From NCBI RefSeq assembly GCF_007829335.1, contig NZ_VIWO01000006.1:248001-312000 (forward strand): a stretch of 64,000 bases of DNA, given 5' to 3'. Origin of the DNA: Chitinophaga polysaccharea (GTDB lineage Bacteria > Bacteroidota > Bacteroidia > Chitinophagales > Chitinophagaceae). The position numbers and the translations under genes were made by a program. A model generated the notes under the pieces. It saw nothing but the letters and a program-made list of their open reading frames with translations, had not been told where the DNA came from and made no database searches. This document shows positions 4,144 to 51,645 of the stretch, in pieces. Each line of letters begins with the position of its first letter. Position 1 is the first letter of the stretch.

Positions 4144-5052
4144 TCAAAAACTGTAGGCCATACGGGCAGTGAAGTAACTCATAATCCCCTGATCCACACC
4201 GGTGAAAGGCTTGAAAACAGTGAAGGCGGGAGCCAGGTTAAAGCGACCAATAAAATACGATAAATTGAGGGTAAGATCCAGGGCGCGGGGCGCAAACTCG
4301 GTATGATCTTCAAAATTCAGCTCTTTTCCCGGGTGCTTTACTATTTTACTCAGCTTGGGAGAGCGGGTGATATATTGGAATGCCTTAAGATTGCTGTAAT
4401 AGTTGGCGGTGCCCATCGTGAAGTTAACGGAAGGGGTGAGCATTAATACATCCATACGGCCCAATACGCTGGAAAATATAAACGGATGCCTTACCGATAC
4501 GATGGTATTGAAATCATTGCCCCGCAGGGTTTCTCTTTTGTGCATGCCTTCAGACACGTCCTTTCCCCAGCCGTAATCCAGGCTCACACCAGGTTGCAGC
4601 CACCAGCGGCGATAGTAGAAGTAAGTAAATATTTCATTCCGGATAGGTGTAGCAGGCACATCTGTGGAATCGGCAAACAGGTAGTGGGTATAGGAAATGC
4701 CAGTGAGGAAGTCTTTGTTTTTCGTATAGTCATAACCGGCAGTCAGATCCCATTCAAACCATGGCTGATGATCTGAATTGAAAAGATAATAAGCGCTAAC
4801 GCTTGCGTATACACCGCTTTTATGATAATAACTCAGAGAGGGAGCTACAAATGTTTTCAAAACAATTGGCAACTCAAAGTTGGTGACCTTACTGCCGTAA
4901 GCAGGATTATTACCATACCCAACGCCCACCACCACTTCGCTCTTTTGCTGCTTCTGCAGCAATGAGTCCAGCTGTTTCTCCAGCTCTGCTAAAGTCTGTC
5001 CGGTTGCAACACGGCTACATAGCAACAGGAACGTTAAGAAGTATAGGCGCAT
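4144..5052 (-). CDS. Predicted outer-membrane or periplasmic protein, unknown function
   Basis: 302 residues. N-terminal signal peptide (hydrophobic to about residue 15, then TGQTLAELEKQLDSLLQKQQ, a short coiled-coil-like segment). The rest consists of alternating strands rich in Tyr, Trp and Phe with repeated Y-x-Y patterns and a C-terminal aromatic (ARMAYSF), which suggests a small outer-membrane beta-barrel. I do not recognise a named family. It is transcribed from its own candidate promoter with TATCTTGC at the -7 position. The barrel assignment rests on composition and end residues only. Confidence 0.6.
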   Translation of the reverse strand: MRLYFLTFLLLCSRVATGQTLAELEKQLDSLLQKQQKSEVVVGVGYGNNPAYGSKVTNFELPIVLKTFVAPSLSYYHKSGVYASVSAYYLFNSDHQPWFEWDLTAGYDYTKNKDFLTGISYTHYLFADSTDVPATPIRNEIFTYFYYRRWWLQPGVSLDYGWGKDVSEGMHKRETLRGNDFNTIVSVRHPFIFSSVLGRMDVLMLTPSVNFTMGTANYYSNLKAFQYITRSPKLSKIVKHPGKELNFEDHTEFAPRALDLTLNLSYFIGRFNLAPAFTVFKPFTGVDQGIMSYFTARMAYSF

Positions 5053-5070
5053 GTTTTAAAAGTACTGACT

Positions 5071-5078
5071 GCAAGATA
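5071..5078 (-). promoter_or_regulatory. Candidate -7 promoter box
   Basis: The minus strand reads TATCTTGC, 6-7 of 8 matches to the Bacteroidota -7 consensus TAnnTTTG, 18 nt upstream of the start codon at 5052. No convincing -33 TTG was found. Confidence 0.35.
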
Positions 5079-5092
5079 AGAGTAATTCAGTA

Positions 5093-5136
5093 TTTAACAC
5101 CCCCTATCCCGTGAATAAGGGGAATAGGGGGTTAAA
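5093..5136 (-). terminator. Probable terminator of the metallophosphoesterase gene
   Basis: Long imperfect inverted repeat: TTTAAC plus a C-rich arm (5093-5110) pairs with a G-rich arm and GTTAAA (5119-5136), with small bulges. It lies about 30 nt downstream of the stop at 5165. There is no long T run, so efficiency is uncertain. Confidence 0.5.
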
Positions 5137-5164
5137 CAGCGCTTTTCTGTCGGCCGGCCAGCAA

Positions 5165-6436
5165 TCAGGTCAGATCTATCACTGTAATCTCCGGCAATAT
5201 GCCCACCCGTCCGGGGTATCCGAGGAAACCGAATCCACGGTTAACGTACAGGAATTGGTCGCCTTTCTTATATAATCCGGCCCACTGTTTATAAAAGTAC
5301 TGCGCCGGGCTCCATTTTAAGCCAGGAATTTCCACGCCGAACTGCATACCGTGGGTATGGCCGGCGAGGGTCAGGGAAATGTCGGGATATTCCGGGCGCA
5401 CCTGTGCATCCCAATGGGTGGGGTCGTGCGACATCAATATTTTAAAGGGAATATCTGCCACACCTTCGTAGGCCCGTTTCAGGTCGCCGTAGCGGGGAAA
5501 ACGCTTAATGGAACTCCAGTTTTCCACCCCGAGCAGGGCTATTTTTTCACCACCGCGCTCCAGTACTACATTTTCGTTCATCATCAGTTTCCATCCCAGC
5601 TCCCCATGTAAGGCCTTCACCTGGTCCAGGTTAGCATGCTGCATAGCGCTATAGCCGTTGGGCGTTTTATCGGGCCAGGGGTAATAATCGCCGTAGTCGT
5701 GGTTGCCCAGGGTAGAATACACGCCCATAGGTGCTTTTACCTCCCTGAATACATCCATCCAATCGGCCATTTCCACGGCCCGGTCGTTGACCAGATCGCC
5801 GGTAAATAGTACCAGGTCGGGCTTTTGATCGTTGATCATCTTAATACCTTTGAGTACGGCCTCGCGGTTGGCGAAGCTGCCGGAGTGGATATCGGATATC
5901 TGTACAATACGCATGCCCCTGAAAGCGTTGGGCAGGTGCTTAAAGCCCATTTTAATCCGGTGTATGCGGTAATTGTATTTATTGGAAAACCCATATACCA
6001 GGGATGCAAAGAGGGTGCCTCCTGCAATAAGCCCCAGGCGGTTCAGGAACTGAGAGCGGGTGAGTCCGCTCACTACCCCACTGCCATCCGGCACAGCCGG
6101 TGTGCTACCAGAAAATCGGCGGATGATCCATACCACCCCTCTCCGGAGGTCGTCGATCAATAAAAACACGGATACCAGGAGCTTGGCTACCACCAGGCCC
6201 ATAAAAATAGCCATGAGATAGGATTTCAGCACGGGGGGCCAGCTATGCCAGTTGATATAGGGCAACAGGGCCACCATCAGGAGGCAGCTGATTGAAATAA
6301 ACCAGTAAATCGTATAGGTAATGTTCCGGACCCGTGGAGCCGACATATAGACCATGGCTCTAATGGCCTGGAAAACGTAAATATCTAACAACAGTAGAAA
6401 AAAAATCAGAATAATAGAGTTTAACCCGGGTCGCAT
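5165..6436 (-). CDS. Membrane-anchored metallophosphoesterase (YkuE-like)
   Basis: 423 residues. Three N-terminal membrane segments (about 7-27, 41-60, 72-94) and a fourth hydrophobic stretch (about 132-150) precede a calcineurin-like phosphoesterase domain. Its metal ligand motifs are all present: DIHSG (Asp182, His184), GDLVND, GNHDY and the late GHTHGMQFG. The active site would face the outer side of the cytoplasmic membrane. Relatives (YkuE, and the LpxH-like superfamily) act on phosphodiesters or on lipid or teichoic substrates; the substrate here cannot be read from sequence. It stands alone, followed by a hairpin. Confidence 0.85.
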   Translation of the reverse strand: MRPGLNSIILIFFLLLLDIYVFQAIRAMVYMSAPRVRNITYTIYWFISISCLLMVALLPYINWHSWPPVLKSYLMAIFMGLVVAKLLVSVFLLIDDLRRGVVWIIRRFSGSTPAVPDGSGVVSGLTRSQFLNRLGLIAGGTLFASLVYGFSNKYNYRIHRIKMGFKHLPNAFRGMRIVQISDIHSGSFANREAVLKGIKMINDQKPDLVLFTGDLVNDRAVEMADWMDVFREVKAPMGVYSTLGNHDYGDYYPWPDKTPNGYSAMQHANLDQVKALHGELGWKLMMNENVVLERGGEKIALLGVENWSSIKRFPRYGDLKRAYEGVADIPFKILMSHDPTHWDAQVRPEYPDISLTLAGHTHGMQFGVEIPGLKWSPAQYFYKQWAGLYKKGDQFLYVNRGFGFLGYPGRVGILPEITVIDLT

Positions 6437-15819: not shown

Positions 15820-16656
15820 ATGACCCAATTTTTTCAAGATATGAAGCACTTAAAAGCATTATTTAAAGAGCAATACAACCCGGAGAACTTTTTCCTGATT
15901 GCTGGCCCCTGTGTAATTGAAGAGGAAGAGATCCTGATGACGGTAGCGGAAAAAGTAACGAAGATTTGTAAACGTTTACAGATCCCCTATATCTTCAAAG
16001 CTTCTTACCGTAAGGCCAACCGTACCAGCGTACATTCCTTCACCGGTATTGGCGATGTAGAAGGACTGGAGCTGTTGCAAAAAGTGGGTAAAACATTTAA
16101 CGTTCCAGTTACCTCCGATATTCACTCTGCAGCGGAAGCAGCTATGGCAGCGGCTTATGTAGATGTATTACAGATACCGGCTTTCCTGTGCCGTCAAACA
16201 GACATCCTGCTGGCAGCGGCAGAAACTGGTAAGGTGGTGAATGTAAAGAAAGGGCAGTTCCTCAGCGGAGAGTCCATGAAATTTGCCGTAGAAAAAATCA
16301 AGGGCGCCGGTAATGATCATATTATCCTGACCGAGCGTGGTACTACTTTCGGTTACCAGGACCTGGTGGTTGACTACCGCAATATTCCGATTATGAAGCA
16401 CCTGGGCGAGCCGGTGGTAATGGATTGTACCCACTCCCTGCAGCAGCCTAATCAAACCAGCGGTGTAACCGGCGGTAATCCGCAAATGATCAGCACCATC
16501 GCCAAAGCAGCTATTGCTACCGGCGCTGATGGCCTGTTTATAGAAACACACCCCGACCCTTCCAAAGCAAAATCTGACGGCGCCAACATGCTGCGCCTCG
16601 ATCTGCTGGAAGAACTGCTGGAAAAACTGGTAGAAATCCGTAAGGTAGTGCGCTAA
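15820..16656 (+). CDS. kdsA: 3-deoxy-8-phosphooctulonate (KDO8P) synthase
   Basis: Condenses phosphoenolpyruvate with arabinose 5-phosphate to KDO 8-phosphate for the lipopolysaccharide inner core. 278 residues as written. The AGPCVIE motif carries a cysteine (Cys31) in the position that marks the metal-dependent class of KDO8P synthases, where E. coli KdsA has asparagine. KASYRKANRTS, the PVTSDIHS segment and the TERGTTFGYQDLVVD loop are standard. Two in-frame starts are possible: 15820 and 15841 (MKHLKALF); the promoter position favours 15841. Confidence 0.94.
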   Translation: MTQFFQDMKHLKALFKEQYNPENFFLIAGPCVIEEEEILMTVAEKVTKICKRLQIPYIFKASYRKANRTSVHSFTGIGDVEGLELLQKVGKTFNVPVTSDIHSAAEAAMAAAYVDVLQIPAFLCRQTDILLAAAETGKVVNVKKGQFLSGESMKFAVEKIKGAGNDHIILTERGTTFGYQDLVVDYRNIPIMKHLGEPVVMDCTHSLQQPNQTSGVTGGNPQMISTIAKAAIATGADGLFIETHPDPSKAKSDGANMLRLDLLEELLEKLVEIRKVVR

Positions 16657-16718
16657 ATAGCGCATGATGCTTTCAGCTTTTTTTCCGTAAATTCATAGCA
16701 CATAAAACTCTGTTCACT

Positions 16719-17120
16719 ATGATTAGCATTCACGAATTAAAATCAGGTGATACCGTTATCACAAACTATGGAGGCATGGAAAAAGAGGGGAAGATTTTGC
16801 AGGTAGACCATGAGGATAAGAAAGTGTTGGTAGCTACGGATGAAAATGAGTATTGGTACGACCTGGACAACCTGTTGCCAGTTCATTTGACGGAAGCTAC
16901 CTTGTTGAAACTACAGTTTCACAAAGATGAAACTGCTTCGTCGCCCGCAGGCGGCAGTTTATATGTAAGAGGGCCTTTCTCAGTCAGGATGTTTGAAGAT
17001 GGGCATAAACCCTTACTTCAGCTGCACTACCGGGATGAAAGCAGGAATCTGAATGCACCAATCACACTGAACGAACTTCAGAACCACTATTACGGCATGA
17101 CAAATTTCCACCTGGAATAA
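16719..17120 (+). CDS. Conserved hypothetical protein, 133 residues
   Basis: No recognised family. A soluble, acidic protein with no signal peptide or membrane helix. The N-terminal half (KSGDTVITNYGGMEKEGKILQVDHEDKKVLVA) reads like a small SH3- or KOW-like barrel; the C-terminal part (PITLNELQNHYYGMTNFHLE) is helical with an aromatic end. It lies 62 bp downstream of kdsA and before a strong terminator, so it probably belongs to the kdsA transcript. Function cannot be inferred. Confidence 0.7.
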   Translation: MISIHELKSGDTVITNYGGMEKEGKILQVDHEDKKVLVATDENEYWYDLDNLLPVHLTEATLLKLQFHKDETASSPAGGSLYVRGPFSVRMFEDGHKPLLQLHYRDESRNLNAPITLNELQNHYYGMTNFHLE

Positions 17121-17124
17121 ACAT

Positions 17125-17164
17125 AAAAACGCCGGCCTCGCAGTATTGTGAGGCCGGCGTTTTT
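17125..17164 (+). terminator. Intrinsic terminator of kdsA unit
   Basis: A perfect 15-bp GC-rich stem (17125-17139 with 17150-17164) with a 10-nt loop, ending in a T run. It sits 4 nt after the stop of the small hypothetical gene. Confidence 0.9.
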
Positions 17165-41981: not shown

Positions 41982-42577
41982 AAAAAATACGCTGCGGTTG
42001 GGCAGGTAAAGACAAGCTTTACCAGGACTACCACGACCAGGAATGGGGCACCCCCCATCATGATGACACCCACCTGTTCGAAATGCTTTGCCTGGAGGGG
42101 GCCCAGGCGGGACTTAGCTGGTACACCGTGCTCACTAAAAGAGAAAACTACCGCAAAGCATTCAGTAACTGGGATGCTAAAAAAATAGCGAAGTACGACG
42201 AAAAAAAGGTAGCGCAACTCATGCTCAATGAGGGCATCATCCGCAACCGCCTTAAAATAAACTCCGTTATTGGTAACGCAAAGGCTTTTCTCGCTGTTCA
42301 AAAAGAATTCGGCAGTTTTGATCAGTATATCTGGTCATTTGTCAACCACCAGCCCATCCACAACCACTTTAAAACAATGGCGGAAGTACCTGCCAAAACA
42401 GCGATCTCCGATGCTATGAGTAAGGACCTGCTGAAACGGGGTTTTAAGTTTGTGGGCTCTACTATCTGTTATGCGTATATGCAGGCAGTAGGAATGGTAG
42501 ATGATCACATAGCGGATTGCTGGAGGAGTGGGAAGGGGAATATGACTACCAGCATATCACCTGAAAAAGACAACTAA
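41969..42577 (+). CDS. tag: DNA-3-methyladenine glycosylase I
   Basis: 202 residues. Excises 3-methyladenine from alkylated DNA. The zinc-binding set of the Tag family is present: Cys9 and His22 (RCGWAGKDKLYQDYH) and the C-terminal HIADC pair. The HhH-like core has LFEMLCLEGAQAGLSWYTVLTKRENYR with the catalytic-site Glu. It overlaps the end of the DUF4954 gene by 13 bp, so it is the third gene of the glmS unit. Its stop overlaps that of the convergent cytochrome gene (CTAA). Confidence 0.94.
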   Translation: MGTVEKIRCGWAGKDKLYQDYHDQEWGTPHHDDTHLFEMLCLEGAQAGLSWYTVLTKRENYRKAFSNWDAKKIAKYDEKKVAQLMLNEGIIRNRLKINSVIGNAKAFLAVQKEFGSFDQYIWSFVNHQPIHNHFKTMAEVPAKTAISDAMSKDLLKRGFKFVGSTICYAYMQAVGMVDDHIADCWRSGKGNMTTSISPEKDN

Positions 42578-43623
42578 TTAATCAACACCTCACTCAATTC
42601 CTTATTATTTAAAAACGAATAATCTGTCAGTGTGTTCAGGAAAAAGTAAAGCTGCCTTTTTTCTCTATCGGAAAGTGGGATACCTGGTTTCACCAGGGGA
42701 TCGGTGGTTGGAGTTACTTTAATACCGTGGTCGTAGAAGTCAAATACCTGGAAGATATCGAAGAAACGGCCGTCGTGCATATAAGGGGCGCTTTTAAGGA
42801 TATTGCGCAGGGAAGGCACCTTAAAACGAAGATTATCGTCGGTATTACCGGTGATTTTCATACGACCTACATCGTTCAGGGCAGGCAGATAGGGAAGCCC
42901 GTTACTGCGGTAGGTTAGATCGGTAAACAGTGGTTCTTTATGGCAGGCAGCGCATTTCTCCTGGAATACGCTATAGCCGGCTTTTTCCTCATCTGAAAAG
43001 GTGGCTCCGGGTAAGTGTTGTATAACGCTATCGTATTTGGAATTGGCAGATACCATAGTGGCGATAAACTGGGTAAATGCCTTAAACATGCGTTCACTGG
43101 TAATTTCGGGAGAACCGAAGGCCGCTTTGAACATTTTACGATACTGGGGATCTGCCTGCATTTTCTGCAACAGCTCTTTCAGGTCCATGGCCATTTCATT
43201 ATGATCGGTGAGCGGGGTAAGCGGCTGTATTTCGAGATGATTCACACCCCCATCCCACATAAAAGCTTTTTGCCAGATCATATTGAATAGTGTGGGTACG
43301 GATCGGGTGCCCTGCTGACCGGCTACGCCGTGCGCCAGCGCATGATCAAAATGTCCGAATGCCGCGAACTGCTGGTGGCAAAAGCCACAGGATACAGTGC
43401 TGTCTTTCGACAGGCGGTAATCATAAAACATGAAACGGCCCAGCGCTACCCCGGGTTTAGTAAGCGGATTGCGGGAGAAATCGTATACCGGCCGGGGAAA
43501 GTGCGATGGCAGCTGCAAAAAATAAGGCGCAGGCTCGCCACGGTGAGGCTTTCGGGCACCCGCCTGCACCAACGCCAGCCAGGCGCAAAACGCTGCTATG
43601 ATATATATCGCTTTATGCTTCAT
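42574..43623 (-). CDS. Diheme cytochrome c peroxidase / MauG family, MbnH-like
   Basis: 349 residues, periplasmic (signal peptide to about ALVQA). Two c-type heme sites are visible: CGFCH near residue 80 and CAACH near residue 225. The general fold is bacterial diheme peroxidase/MauG. Its direct partner upstream is an MbnP-domain protein, 8 bp away; in characterised MbnH-MbnP pairs the MauG-type enzyme oxidises a tryptophan of MbnP to kynurenine so that MbnP can bind copper. That role is inferred from pairing. A plain hydrogen peroxide-detoxifying peroxidase is the alternative. Confidence 0.85.
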   Translation of the reverse strand: MKHKAIYIIAAFCAWLALVQAGARKPHRGEPAPYFLQLPSHFPRPVYDFSRNPLTKPGVALGRFMFYDYRLSKDSTVSCGFCHQQFAAFGHFDHALAHGVAGQQGTRSVPTLFNMIWQKAFMWDGGVNHLEIQPLTPLTDHNEMAMDLKELLQKMQADPQYRKMFKAAFGSPEITSERMFKAFTQFIATMVSANSKYDSVIQHLPGATFSDEEKAGYSVFQEKCAACHKEPLFTDLTYRSNGLPYLPALNDVGRMKITGNTDDNLRFKVPSLRNILKSAPYMHDGRFFDIFQVFDFYDHGIKVTPTTDPLVKPGIPLSDREKRQLYFFLNTLTDYSFLNNKELSEVLIN

Positions 43624-43631
43624 GTACGCTA

Positions 43632-44381
43632 TCAGTCGGATATACCCGTTACCCGGAACATATGCTGGTAATTACTGGCTACCTTACGCGCATTCACCCC
43701 TGGCGCCATAATGACCGCCACCTGTTTGAAGCTCACGGTATCTGGTAAAAACCATTTGGCGACGTCGGCGCTGAGTTGCACCTGTGGCTGTTTTCCGGTG
43801 GCTATGGTTAATGGCTGCGGGAAGGGAAGCTCCACATATTTCAATACCTGGTTGGCAGCTTTATAACCACCTGTATGAAACAGAAATTCCTTTGTGGGAG
43901 AAGTTATTACCGGGGAATATCCTTCCAGTTGCGCCATAATATACCCGCTGTTCCAGGTCCAGAACATGCCCGATTCCACTGCCAATGCGCCGGCTTGTAC
44001 GCCGCTTACATTGCGGATACTGTCCACCCCGATAAGAAAACGAATACTTTTATATTGCCCGGCGGGTACGTTATCTAACCGTATTATTTTAGAACTGTCG
44101 ATAGCATCATCTACCAGGAAATAAGATACGGGCAAGATGCTTCTTTTGCCATCTACTGTTTCCAGGGAAAAATTACTGAGGAAATAACGGAAACGGCTAA
44201 TCGTAAAAGGCTCGCCGGAGGAATTAGTATAAGTTACCTGTTTTCTTTCCAGCGGCTGTGCGCCCATGATATGCGTGATATGCAGCTGCAGGGACGGATC
44301 ACCGTTGCCCGGAGCGCCGGCAAACAGGATGGCTATCAATAGGAACCAACCAGCATAGGCAAAAAAAGTCCGCAAAATCAT
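43632..44381 (-). CDS. MbnP family copper-binding-type protein
   Basis: 249 residues, exported (hydrophobic N-terminus to about residue 22). The MbnP domain pattern is clear: VTYTNSSGEPFTISRFRYFLSNF, the conserved GMFWTWNSGY with Trp141 and Trp143, then LEG, FHTGGY (His169) and the C-terminal NYQHMF. Members bind copper after a tryptophan is turned into kynurenine by a partner MauG-like enzyme, and such an enzyme is encoded 8 bp downstream. No methanobactin biosynthesis genes are in the window. The ATG at 44381 lies inside the second arm of a terminator-like hairpin; moving the start downstream would spoil the signal peptide. Confidence 0.82.
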   Translation of the reverse strand: MILRTFFAYAGWFLLIAILFAGAPGNGDPSLQLHITHIMGAQPLERKQVTYTNSSGEPFTISRFRYFLSNFSLETVDGKRSILPVSYFLVDDAIDSSKIIRLDNVPAGQYKSIRFLIGVDSIRNVSGVQAGALAVESGMFWTWNSGYIMAQLEGYSPVITSPTKEFLFHTGGYKAANQVLKYVELPFPQPLTIATGKQPQVQLSADVAKWFLPDTVSFKQVAVIMAPGVNARKVASNYQHMFRVTGISD

Positions 44382-44418
44382 GGTATCCTCTTTTACAGGA
44401 AGTTACATGATTTTGCGG
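44370..44418 (-). terminator. Terminator-like hairpin containing the MbnP start codon
   Basis: A perfect 13-bp inverted repeat (44370-44382 with 44406-44418, CCGCAAAATCATG/CATGATTTTGCGG), 23-nt spacer. On the minus strand the second arm contains ATG ATT TTG CGG of the MbnP gene and is followed by ACTTTTTTT. It ends the fucose-type operon (fucP stop at 44445) and could also attenuate or hide the start of MbnP. Confidence 0.75.
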
Positions 44419-44444
44419 ATTATATATGAAAAAGAAATAACTGG

Positions 44445-45683
44445 TTATACTCTCTTATACCCCTTCCAACCGTATAGGAACACGATGAAAAAGCAGATAG
44501 TAGGAATACCGTAGGAAATAGCCAATGACTGCCATTCGGTAACAATACCCATTACATAAGGCACAGAAGCACCTCCCACTATAGACATTACCTGGAAGGA
44601 AGCGCCCCGCTTGGTATTTTTTCCCAGGTCTTTTACGCCCAGCGCAAAAATGGTGGGGAACATGATAGACATGAAGAAGAAAACAGCGATCAGCGCATAC
44701 ACAGAAGGCGCACCGTTACCCGTCATCACAAACGCGCATAAGCACATATTGATAAACGCATAAATAGCGAGTAACTGGTTAGGGGCAACTTTACGCATTA
44801 ACGCGGTACCCACAAAACGGCCTCCCATAAATAAAGCCATGCCTACAGACAACAGGTAAGATGCGTTTTCGGTGGAAATACCATGCCAGTAAGCGGTAAC
44901 GTAGTTGATAAACAGCGCTCCTACTCCTACCTGTGCCGCCACATAGAAAAACTGGGCTACTACGCCAAGTACAAAGTGACGGTGGGCAAAAAGCGGGCGG
45001 GTATCTTCCATTACTTCCTTTCCCTCCTGCTCTGCTTCTTTAATTTCAGGCAGCGGTGTTCTGTAAAAGAATCCTGCAATCAATAACACCACCACGCCAA
45101 TGGCGATGTAGGTCAGTTTTACCGTAGTCAGGTCATTGCTGCCACTTCCAAAAAACAACTTGGCGCCGATGATAGGCCCCAGGAAAGAGCCCAGTCCATT
45201 AAAGCATTGCGATAAATTGAGTCGTTGTTCAGAGGTTTCTTTAGCACCCAATACTGTTACATATGGATTGGCAGCGGTTTCCAGGCAAGCTAATCCACAA
45301 GCCAGGATAAATAATGCCGCCAGGAAAAAATCAAAATTGAGTGCATTGGCAGCCGGATAAAACAGGAAAGCACCAATGGCATATAACATCAGCCCCAGGA
45401 TAATACCTTTCTTGTATCCGAATTTATTCATAAACATTCCTGCGGGCAATGCCATCAGGAAATAAGCACCAAAATAAGCGCCTTGTAATAAGGTAGAACG
45501 TTTGGTGGTAATATTCAATACTTCCTGGAAATGCTTATTCAACACATCTAACAGACCATAAGCCAGTCCCCACAGGAAAAACAGGCTGGTCACTAATATA
45601 AACGGGAAAAGGTAGCTACCTGGCTTTGCGCCGGTATCCTTGGTACTGGTATAGGTGGAATTACTTACTGCGCCTCCGGCCAT
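44445..45683 (-). CDS. fucP: FucP-like sugar:proton symporter (MFS, FHS family)
   Basis: 412 residues, twelve predicted membrane helices, inner membrane. The sequence follows the L-fucose permease group: FILVTSLFFLWGLAYGLLDVLNKHFQ in helix 1, GAYFGAYFLMALPAGMFMNKFGYKKGI, and ACGLACLETAANPYVTVLG. It is the last gene of a cluster encoding oxidative deoxysugar catabolism, which supports L-fucose as substrate; other FHS members carry glucose, galactose or N-acetylglucosamine. It is followed by the terminator-like hairpin that overlaps the MbnP gene. Confidence 0.85.
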   Translation of the reverse strand: MAGGAVSNSTYTSTKDTGAKPGSYLFPFILVTSLFFLWGLAYGLLDVLNKHFQEVLNITTKRSTLLQGAYFGAYFLMALPAGMFMNKFGYKKGIILGLMLYAIGAFLFYPAANALNFDFFLAALFILACGLACLETAANPYVTVLGAKETSEQRLNLSQCFNGLGSFLGPIIGAKLFFGSGSNDLTTVKLTYIAIGVVVLLIAGFFYRTPLPEIKEAEQEGKEVMEDTRPLFAHRHFVLGVVAQFFYVAAQVGVGALFINYVTAYWHGISTENASYLLSVGMALFMGGRFVGTALMRKVAPNQLLAIYAFINMCLCAFVMTGNGAPSVYALIAVFFFMSIMFPTIFALGVKDLGKNTKRGASFQVMSIVGGASVPYVMGIVTEWQSLAISYGIPTICFFIVFLYGWKGYKRV

Positions 45684-51165: not shown

Positions 51166-51558
51166 TCAACGGATAAAAACAGTGTCTATGCGATTGGGTA
51201 CTCCCTTCCACTTTATATAATAAGTACCGGCAGCACTGGGGGTAAACACAAAATTTTTGGTAGCAGAGATCGGCATGAGGATGCAGGCAGTACAGGTATT
51301 CAGAACAGATTCCGCCCCTACAACAACGGTATCTTTATCTTTTGTTAATATAAATTTATTGATAGCATAACAACCATGGGGAAACACACAGGTAACATCA
51401 AAAAAGGCAGTGCCCTGTTGTCCTGCTTCTCCCCGGCTGGTGCCTATATATCTGACGCCGTTGATATCAGCCATGCCATATCGGGAGCAGTTATCACTGT
51501 CTTTCTTACAGGCAGGGAATATCAATAATACTATTAGTAGTATAAATGCTGTTTTCAT
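51166..51558 (-). CDS. Small lipoprotein, unknown function
   Basis: 130 residues. Lipoprotein signal (ILLIVLLIFPAC, lipobox Cys17, then Lys-Lys-Asp-Ser-Asp). The mature part has several further cysteines (NCSRYG, VTCVFPHGC, NTCTAC) and a beta-sandwich-like end (FTPSAAGTYYIKWKG). No named family recognised. The 40-bp palindrome behind leuA lies 48 bp upstream of its start. Confidence 0.68.
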   Translation of the reverse strand: MKTAFILLIVLLIFPACKKDSDNCSRYGMADINGVRYIGTSRGEAGQQGTAFFDVTCVFPHGCYAINKFILTKDKDTVVVGAESVLNTCTACILMPISATKNFVFTPSAAGTYYIKWKGVPNRIDTVFIR

Positions 51559-51605
51559 CGGGTTGTATTATATATCTGTATAACGTGAACCCGCGTTAAA
51601 AGTTA

Positions 51606-51645
51606 CAGGGGTGATCTGAACGGACGTCCGTTCAGATCACCCCTG
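51606..51645. repeat. 40-bp perfect palindrome behind leuA
   Basis: Bases 51606-51625 are the exact reverse complement of 51626-51645, with no spacer; the centre is GAACGGACGTCCGTTC. It lies 20 bp after the leuA stop (minus strand) and 48 bp before the lipoprotein start. No T run on either side. It may be the leu operon terminator, or an operator for the lipoprotein gene. Confidence 0.8.

Follow-up and report, generated by a model that had tools for sequence, protein, structure and literature searches.

A hairpin built like an intrinsic terminator lies between the last gene of an L-fucose operon and an mbnP-like gene in Chitinophaga polysaccharea, and its second arm contains the mbnP start codon. 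Our best reading is that this element is an insulator rather than a copper attenuator. We consider it likely that the intrinsic terminator of the L-fucose operon has merged with the start of the mbnP-mbnH gene pair, that the pair has its own promoter in the loop, and that the hairpin insulates the pair from the operon; within this reading, we infer actual termination, the promoter, its start site, and translational masking from sequence comparison. The hairpin would terminate the L-fucose operon after fucP, with mbnP codons 1 to 7 providing both its second arm and its U-tract, and mbnP would be transcribed from its own promoter, the −7 box of which would be found in the loop. The mRNA of mbnP itself would then begin in the loop, and, with the first arm missing, its AUG would be more open. 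RNA from the fucose operon would carry both arms and would either stop at the U-tract or read through with the AUG buried. Thus, mbnP-mbnH would be insulated from the fucose operon at two levels.

The Locus and Its Hairpin

The window, that is, the whole stretch of 64,000 nucleotides that was analyzed, carries on its minus strand an L-fucose operon composed of a fuconolactonase-like gene, an L-fucose dehydrogenase gene, and fucP, which ends at 44445 (Table 1). The stop codon of fucP and the ATG of mbnP are 63 nt apart, and the mbnH-like gene, which is probably co-transcribed with mbnP, starts 8 nt past the end of the latter. The mbnP product scores 34.2 bits against TIGR04052 (the MbnP copper-binding equivalog), for which the curated cut-off is 140 bits; because it falls below this value although it exceeds the cut-off of the Pfam MbnP family, PF20243, we refer to the protein as MbnP-like. 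It is 93% identical to the MbnP proteins of C. eiseniae Ak56 and Chitinophaga sp. Ak27, the nearest named relatives found.

Table 1. Features of the fucP-mbnP junction and its neighboring genes (positions in the window).
Feature	Position	Strand	Basis or remark
fucP-like MFS permease, last gene of the L-fucose operon	44445..45683	minus	ORF; TIGR00885 fucP, 342.6 bits (cut-off 280.4)
First (5′) stem arm, intergenic, TCCGCAAAATCATG	44406..44419	minus	retained by 33 of the 79 Chitinophaga genomes
Putative −7 promoter box of mbnP, TAACTTCC, TAnnTTTG-like, sub-consensus	44398..44405	minus	GTA..TT invariant in 33 aligned loci
Loop, 23 nt	44383..44405	minus	14-30 nt between arms in relatives (28 loci measured)
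Predicted mbnP transcription start, 12-nt leader	44393	minus	placed from a box position of −12 to −5
Second (3′) stem arm, CATGATTTTGCGGA, with the mbnP ATG (44379-44381) and codons 2-4	44369..44382	minus	synonymous sites frozen
T7 run, candidate terminator U-tract, coding (mbnP codons 5-7)	44361..44367	minus	sequence
mbnP-like gene, 249 aa	43632..44381	minus	PF20243 (Pfam), 171.1 bits (cut-off 27)
mbnH-like di-haem peroxidase/MauG-family gene	42574..43623	minus	PF03150, 162.6 bits; TIGR04039, 190.3 bits, below the cut-off of 362.85

A preliminary description of this DNA had reported a perfect 13-bp stem followed by seven T on the minus strand, with the ATG and first codons of mbnP in the second arm and a T run that is coding. 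Both observations are correct, except that the stem is one pair longer, with a perfect match over 14 bp (44419-44406 with 44382-44369), and that a single C (44368) stands between it and the T7 run in the window copy. The stem begins 25 nt past the fucP stop and has a G/C-rich foot. The MFE of a 106-nt region around it is −28.9 kcal/mol, compared with −15.97 (sd 2.88) in 200 shuffles (z = −4.49). The hairpin is absent from the output of a consensus terminator scan because that scan admits only loops of 3 to 8.

Strong hairpins are not rare in this genome, as 48 perfect stems of at least 13 bp (loop 3-45) were counted in 464 kb, compared with none in one first-order Markov shuffle. One such stem per window is unsurprising by itself, and the hairpin might therefore be regarded as a chance inverted repeat arising from signal-peptide coding sequence, but its retention in 33 genomes, with double changes and frozen codons, makes this explanation extremely improbable. 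Furthermore, among 352 called genes (ORFs of at least 120 aa, with the first ATG taken), mbnP is the only one whose ATG is covered by a stem of 9 bp or more with a T run behind it; in three others, a stem covers the called ATG, but no T run follows. According to PMC6060812, inverted repeats are scarce immediately before start codons in E. coli, which fits the oddity of the mbnP hairpin.

We rejected the idea that the element is a dispersed repeat of the REP or MITE type, as the junction DNA, searched on both strands of the genome, matches no place but its own; the exact arm CCGCAAAATCAT occurs at five places, two of which are this stem. The foot of the stem was also considered as a stock terminator of the genome, but ATCCGC...GCGGATTTTT is found at only two places, so support for this possibility is weak.

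Other long inverted repeats were observed near gene starts. For instance, the window contains a perfect 40-bp palindrome at 51606-51645, directly before TAACTT at 51605 and between a leuA-like gene (a name that reflects our reading of the ORF) and a minus-strand gene at 51166-51558; this is another hairpin-then-box junction, without overlap. In locus L084, the TGTTCCACGTGGAACA palindrome, which we take to be parS-like, appears twice in a 19-bp inverted repeat, 31 nt apart, spanning the start of the called gene at 4144-6091. In L087, a perfect 34-bp inverted repeat, with 27 nt in its loop, has its end over the start codon called for the gene at 16197-17142, with no clear T run.

Conservation of the Hairpin in Chitinophaga

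The covariance model R1, built from 28 loci, located the hairpin across the start of mbnP in 33 of the 79 genomes of Chitinophaga, with one strong site in each (E < 1e-13); this strong set is made up of the original 28 loci and 5 new ones. Three more of the 79 genomes gave weak matches only. When 195 genomes drawn evenly from the family were searched, strong matches came solely from G000 and G042, both Chitinophaga. Elsewhere, there were 16 weak places, 11 within the genus search and 5 within the search of the 195 family genomes, both of which were run with stricter filters, at the cost of weak matches. Owing to the symmetry of the element, R1 also matches the opposite strand of the same places, and these matches were left uncounted. 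Seven weak places were inspected: L146, L148, L154, and L155 have similar stems and resemble ordinary terminators, L147 and L150 fall within an ORF, and L149 is an unrelated long repeat.

The preliminary description had proposed that conservation of the stem and compensatory changes be sought in relatives. In the 33 loci, 97.0% of 460 stem cells are standard pairs, double changes occur in three stem pairs, and the covariation score is 0.060, compared with at most 0.015 when partners are slid; none of 500 shuffles reached this score. One-sided G-U changes are tolerated in the stem. The covariation is thus genuine but modest: 7 of the 15 stem pairs are invariant, and 7 of 31 distinct rows lack pairing at one inner position. 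As the 33 genomes are related, counts made over them are not independent.

The codons of the second arm are also constrained. Leu3 is encoded by TTG in 32 of the 33 hairpin loci and Arg4 by CGG in all 33, while TTG makes up 15.7% of Leu codons in the 352 genes of this genome and CGG stands at 20.8%. The modal codon share is 38-84% in nine other conserved Leu columns of mbnP, and 5 of 60 conserved columns outside the hairpin (Phe twice, Thr, Asn, and Glu, with no Leu) also have one codon in at least 90% of rows. The U-tract shows a similar bias: nucleotides 13-21 of the ORF contain at least six T in 29 of the 33 hairpin loci, compared with 20 of the 352 genes and 7 of the 45 mbnP genes that lack the hairpin (L029 and L055 included), and the third position of codon 7 is T in 32 of 33, compared with 31%. 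Judged by these alignments, the hairpin is a conserved paired element over the mbnP start codon, with nucleotide-level constraint on codons 3 and 4, and it is an old element of the genus Chitinophaga.

A perfect inverted repeat around a putative promoter could also be a DNA-level operator, bound by a regulator of mbnP or of the fucose operon. We consider this very unlikely, as the spacing of the arms varies from 14 to 30 nt and helical phasing is therefore broken, the stem tolerates one-sided G-U changes, and the element has been found only where fucP is adjacent.

A Probable Terminator at Every fucP-mbnP Junction Seen

In a census of the 79 Chitinophaga genomes, one mbnP was located per genome, and fucP was taken as adjacent when its end lay at most 150 nt upstream. 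By this definition, fucP directly precedes mbnP in 56 genomes: 33 of them carry the fused hairpin, and in the remaining 23, a separate terminator of the ordinary kind precedes the ATG. Thus, every fucP-mbnP junction seen has one terminator, either fused or separate. A second small-loop terminator was found in the gap of none of the 33 fused junctions, and the fused hairpin was found in none of the 23 genomes without an adjacent fucP. This last group includes L145, a locus with a fragmented mbnP and no start, whose genome is 65% complete and has no R1 match; L145 was left outside the tree and all start-based counts. Automatic starts were wrong for L014, L029, and L055; that of L014 was reset by its hairpin.

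Of the separate terminators, 22 were found by a script and the 23rd (L059) was recognized by its hairpin. With a minimum of 11 pairs, the script recovered terminators in 22 of the 23 junctions, compared with 1 of 460 shuffled versions of them and 0 of 224 coding stretches. It also returned a terminator for 10 of 64 same-strand gaps of this genome that measure 60-150 nt, for 2 of 23 on the opposite strand, and for 1 of 22 mbnP starts that have no adjacent fucP. These separate terminators comprise at least six unrelated sequences (in our grouping, sets of 14, 4, and 2 genomes plus three singles). Moreover, the hairpin is kept beside a distant version of FucP (49-52% identity) in 8 of the 33 loci (L007, L009, L014-L018, and L130). 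At the junctions compared, the fused hairpin and ordinary terminators are mutually exclusive, and the hairpin sits where the operon must end, which strongly backs a terminator role, in keeping with the earlier remark that it looks like the terminator of the fucose-type operon.

On a tree of 78 MbnH proteins, the distribution of the fused state needs three changes, at least two of which are forced by well-supported branches. The fused hairpin is found in one clade of 29 and in three lineages (L024; L031; and L030 with L032) that diverge low in the tree's other half. The simplest reading would be that the fused hairpin is ancestral and has been lost about three times, under a midpoint root that serves for drawing only, in a tree with some weak inner branches and with long ones for L130 and L055. 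By eye, a first-arm-like remnant can be recognized in L048, L138, and L144, which have a separate terminator and no second arm; in L144, fucP is not adjacent.

A Putative Promoter in the Loop

In the alignment of the 33 loci, the invariant columns of the loop read G, T, A, two free positions, T, T, and one later T, a pattern that fits TAnnTT. PMC9723704 and PMC6847099 give TANNTTTG as the −7 box of Bacteroidota, and the former places it at −12 to −5 in F. psychrophilum. Upstream of the ORFs of this genome, TANNTTTG ranks first among 840 permuted motifs, with 64 sites vs. 47 for the next, and 33 of the 64 are located 15-44 nt before an ATG. Upstream of mbnP, TAnnTT has its first base 6-30 nt ahead of the ATG in 77 of 78 loci with the starts as called, and also in the 78th (L029) after its start was re-chosen; it is likewise present at most 30 nt from the ATG of mbnP genes with separate terminators.

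However, 78 of 231 genes also have TAnnTT in the corresponding upstream interval, and in this AT-rich DNA, it is no commoner near the start than far from it (62 vs. 60 of 197 upstream regions). As the motif alone is common, the promoter call rests on conservation among related loci. No clear −33 element was seen for mbnP. This element is weak even among 52 TANNTTTG sites, 5 of which have TTTG at −24, and for F. johnsoniae, PMC6847099 describes the −33 motif as far less evident than the −7 motif. With the promoter being the least certain part of our reading, mbnP RNA probably starts inside the hairpin loop, without the first arm.

A transcription start in the spacer was what the preliminary description had set against its own proposal, and the conserved −7-like box suggests, if only putatively, such a start. 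The whole hairpin would then be made by read-through only. The proposed masking of read-through RNA stands, and the part of that proposal that saw a possible attenuator of MbnP-MbnH is not supported. As an attenuator, the hairpin would switch between termination and read-through in response to copper or fucose, and mbnP-mbnH would be expressed from the fucose operon. The conservation of a hairpin over the start codon and the adjacency of fucP and mbnP in 56 of 79 genomes are in keeping with this, but we saw no conserved aptamer, antiterminator, or alternative fold in the 47-70 nt gap, where the bases before the stem vary. An Rfam search returned two sub-threshold matches only (E = 0.3 and 0.51, both on the plus strand), with none near a gathering score. 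In addition, at least six unrelated plain terminators stand in for the hairpin in relatives, and the −7-like box is kept in both the fused and the separate groups. We therefore find a conditional attenuator, for which we saw no sensor, quite unlikely and not needed.

Very short leaders are also predicted at other mbnP loci. In L012 and L129, where just 14 nt separate the arms, the predicted start coincides with the A of the ATG, and a leaderless mRNA is expected. In L038-L044, L132-L135, and L137, which have no adjacent fucP, TACTTTCG or TACTTTGG is found 12-13 nt before the mbnP ATG.

Predicted Accessibility of the Start Codon

In read-through RNA, the predicted probability that the mbnP AUG is unpaired is 0.003 for the window and averages 0.014 (range 0.001-0.021) over the 33 loci. 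The corresponding predicted means are 0.361 for 43 mbnP genes without the hairpin (L029 and L055 excluded), 0.433 for 332 genes, and 0.461 for hairpin-locus RNA beginning at the predicted own start. The own-promoter RNA is sometimes predicted to keep the AUG buried, with values of 0.027 in L027 and 0.081 in L016, and low predicted values also occur at other genes: at most 0.05 in 27 of the 332 called genes, mbnP included, and below 0.2 in 13 of the 43 mbnP genes without the hairpin. These predictions support the earlier suggestion that transcripts entering from upstream would end or have their start codon masked. According to PMC6847099, Bacteroidota mRNAs are without Shine-Dalgarno sites, and RNA structure close to the start codon modulates initiation; burying the AUG should therefore matter.

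It could be argued that the hairpin is purely a translational mask, which hides the AUG on read-through RNA without terminating transcription. The low predicted accessibility in all 33 loci agrees with this, as do two features that speak against a plain terminator, namely, the large distance between the arms and the C between the stem and the T run in the window. Nevertheless, the U-tract codons are rich in T, as described above, and the hairpin swaps with ordinary terminators at the same junction, so we regard a mask that leaves transcription untouched as unlikely and favor a hairpin that would act both as terminator and as mask.

Implications and Comparison with Known Systems

We lean, by a modest degree, toward a more far-reaching version of this reading, in which a three-in-one junction was inherited from the ancestor of the genus. 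The terminator hairpin would hold a promoter in its loop and a coding start in its second arm, only RNA begun in the loop would be translated, and the N-terminal sequence MILRIF would be dictated by the terminator. If true, about 60 bases can accommodate a terminator, a promoter, and a coding start in an arrangement that persists through much of a genus, and the N-terminus of a protein can be shaped by RNA termination. The census of 79 genomes provides a natural experiment, with non-fused lineages that have either a separate terminator or no fucP beside mbnP. It also suggests caution, in that one should ask where the transcript starts before reading hairpins over start codons as attenuators. 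Among the matches listed, and within open-access text, we found no report of such an arrangement.

Several known systems share some of these features. As in attenuators and riboswitches, a terminator-like hairpin lies before or over a start codon; unlike them, the mbnP hairpin shows no sensor or alternative structure among the 33 loci or in Rfam, and it belongs to the end of the upstream operon. It resembles intrinsic terminators in the G/C pairs at the foot of the stem, the U-tract, and its position just past the last stop codon, where 23 relatives have ordinary ones, but its second arm and U-tract belong to the coding region of the gene that follows, its arms are 14-30 nt apart, and its loop probably holds a promoter. 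In IS10 and IS200, read-through RNA folds over the start of the transposase gene, shielding the transposase from outside transcription. In contrast to these elements, the mbnP hairpin is not mobile, is present in a single copy in the genome, and would shield an ordinary chromosomal gene pair.

One of the closest known parallels is in phage T4. According to PMC2988022, a hairpin hides the ribosome site of I-TevI on RNA begun upstream, and RNA from a late promoter is too short to form it and is translated. The same source describes a similar arrangement for I-TevII, I-TevIII, segB, and mobE of phage Aeh1, and names T4 soc, e, 39, 25, and 26 for hidden ribosome sites. As with the T4 hairpins, we propose masking only for RNA begun upstream and place the own promoter past the first arm. 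Unlike them, the Chitinophaga element lies on a chromosome and would cover the AUG itself, and its U-tract should make it a terminator of the upstream operon as well. By this analogy, the mbnP hairpin would work like the read-through hairpins of T4, and it would be new in its added termination and in its location on a bacterial chromosome.
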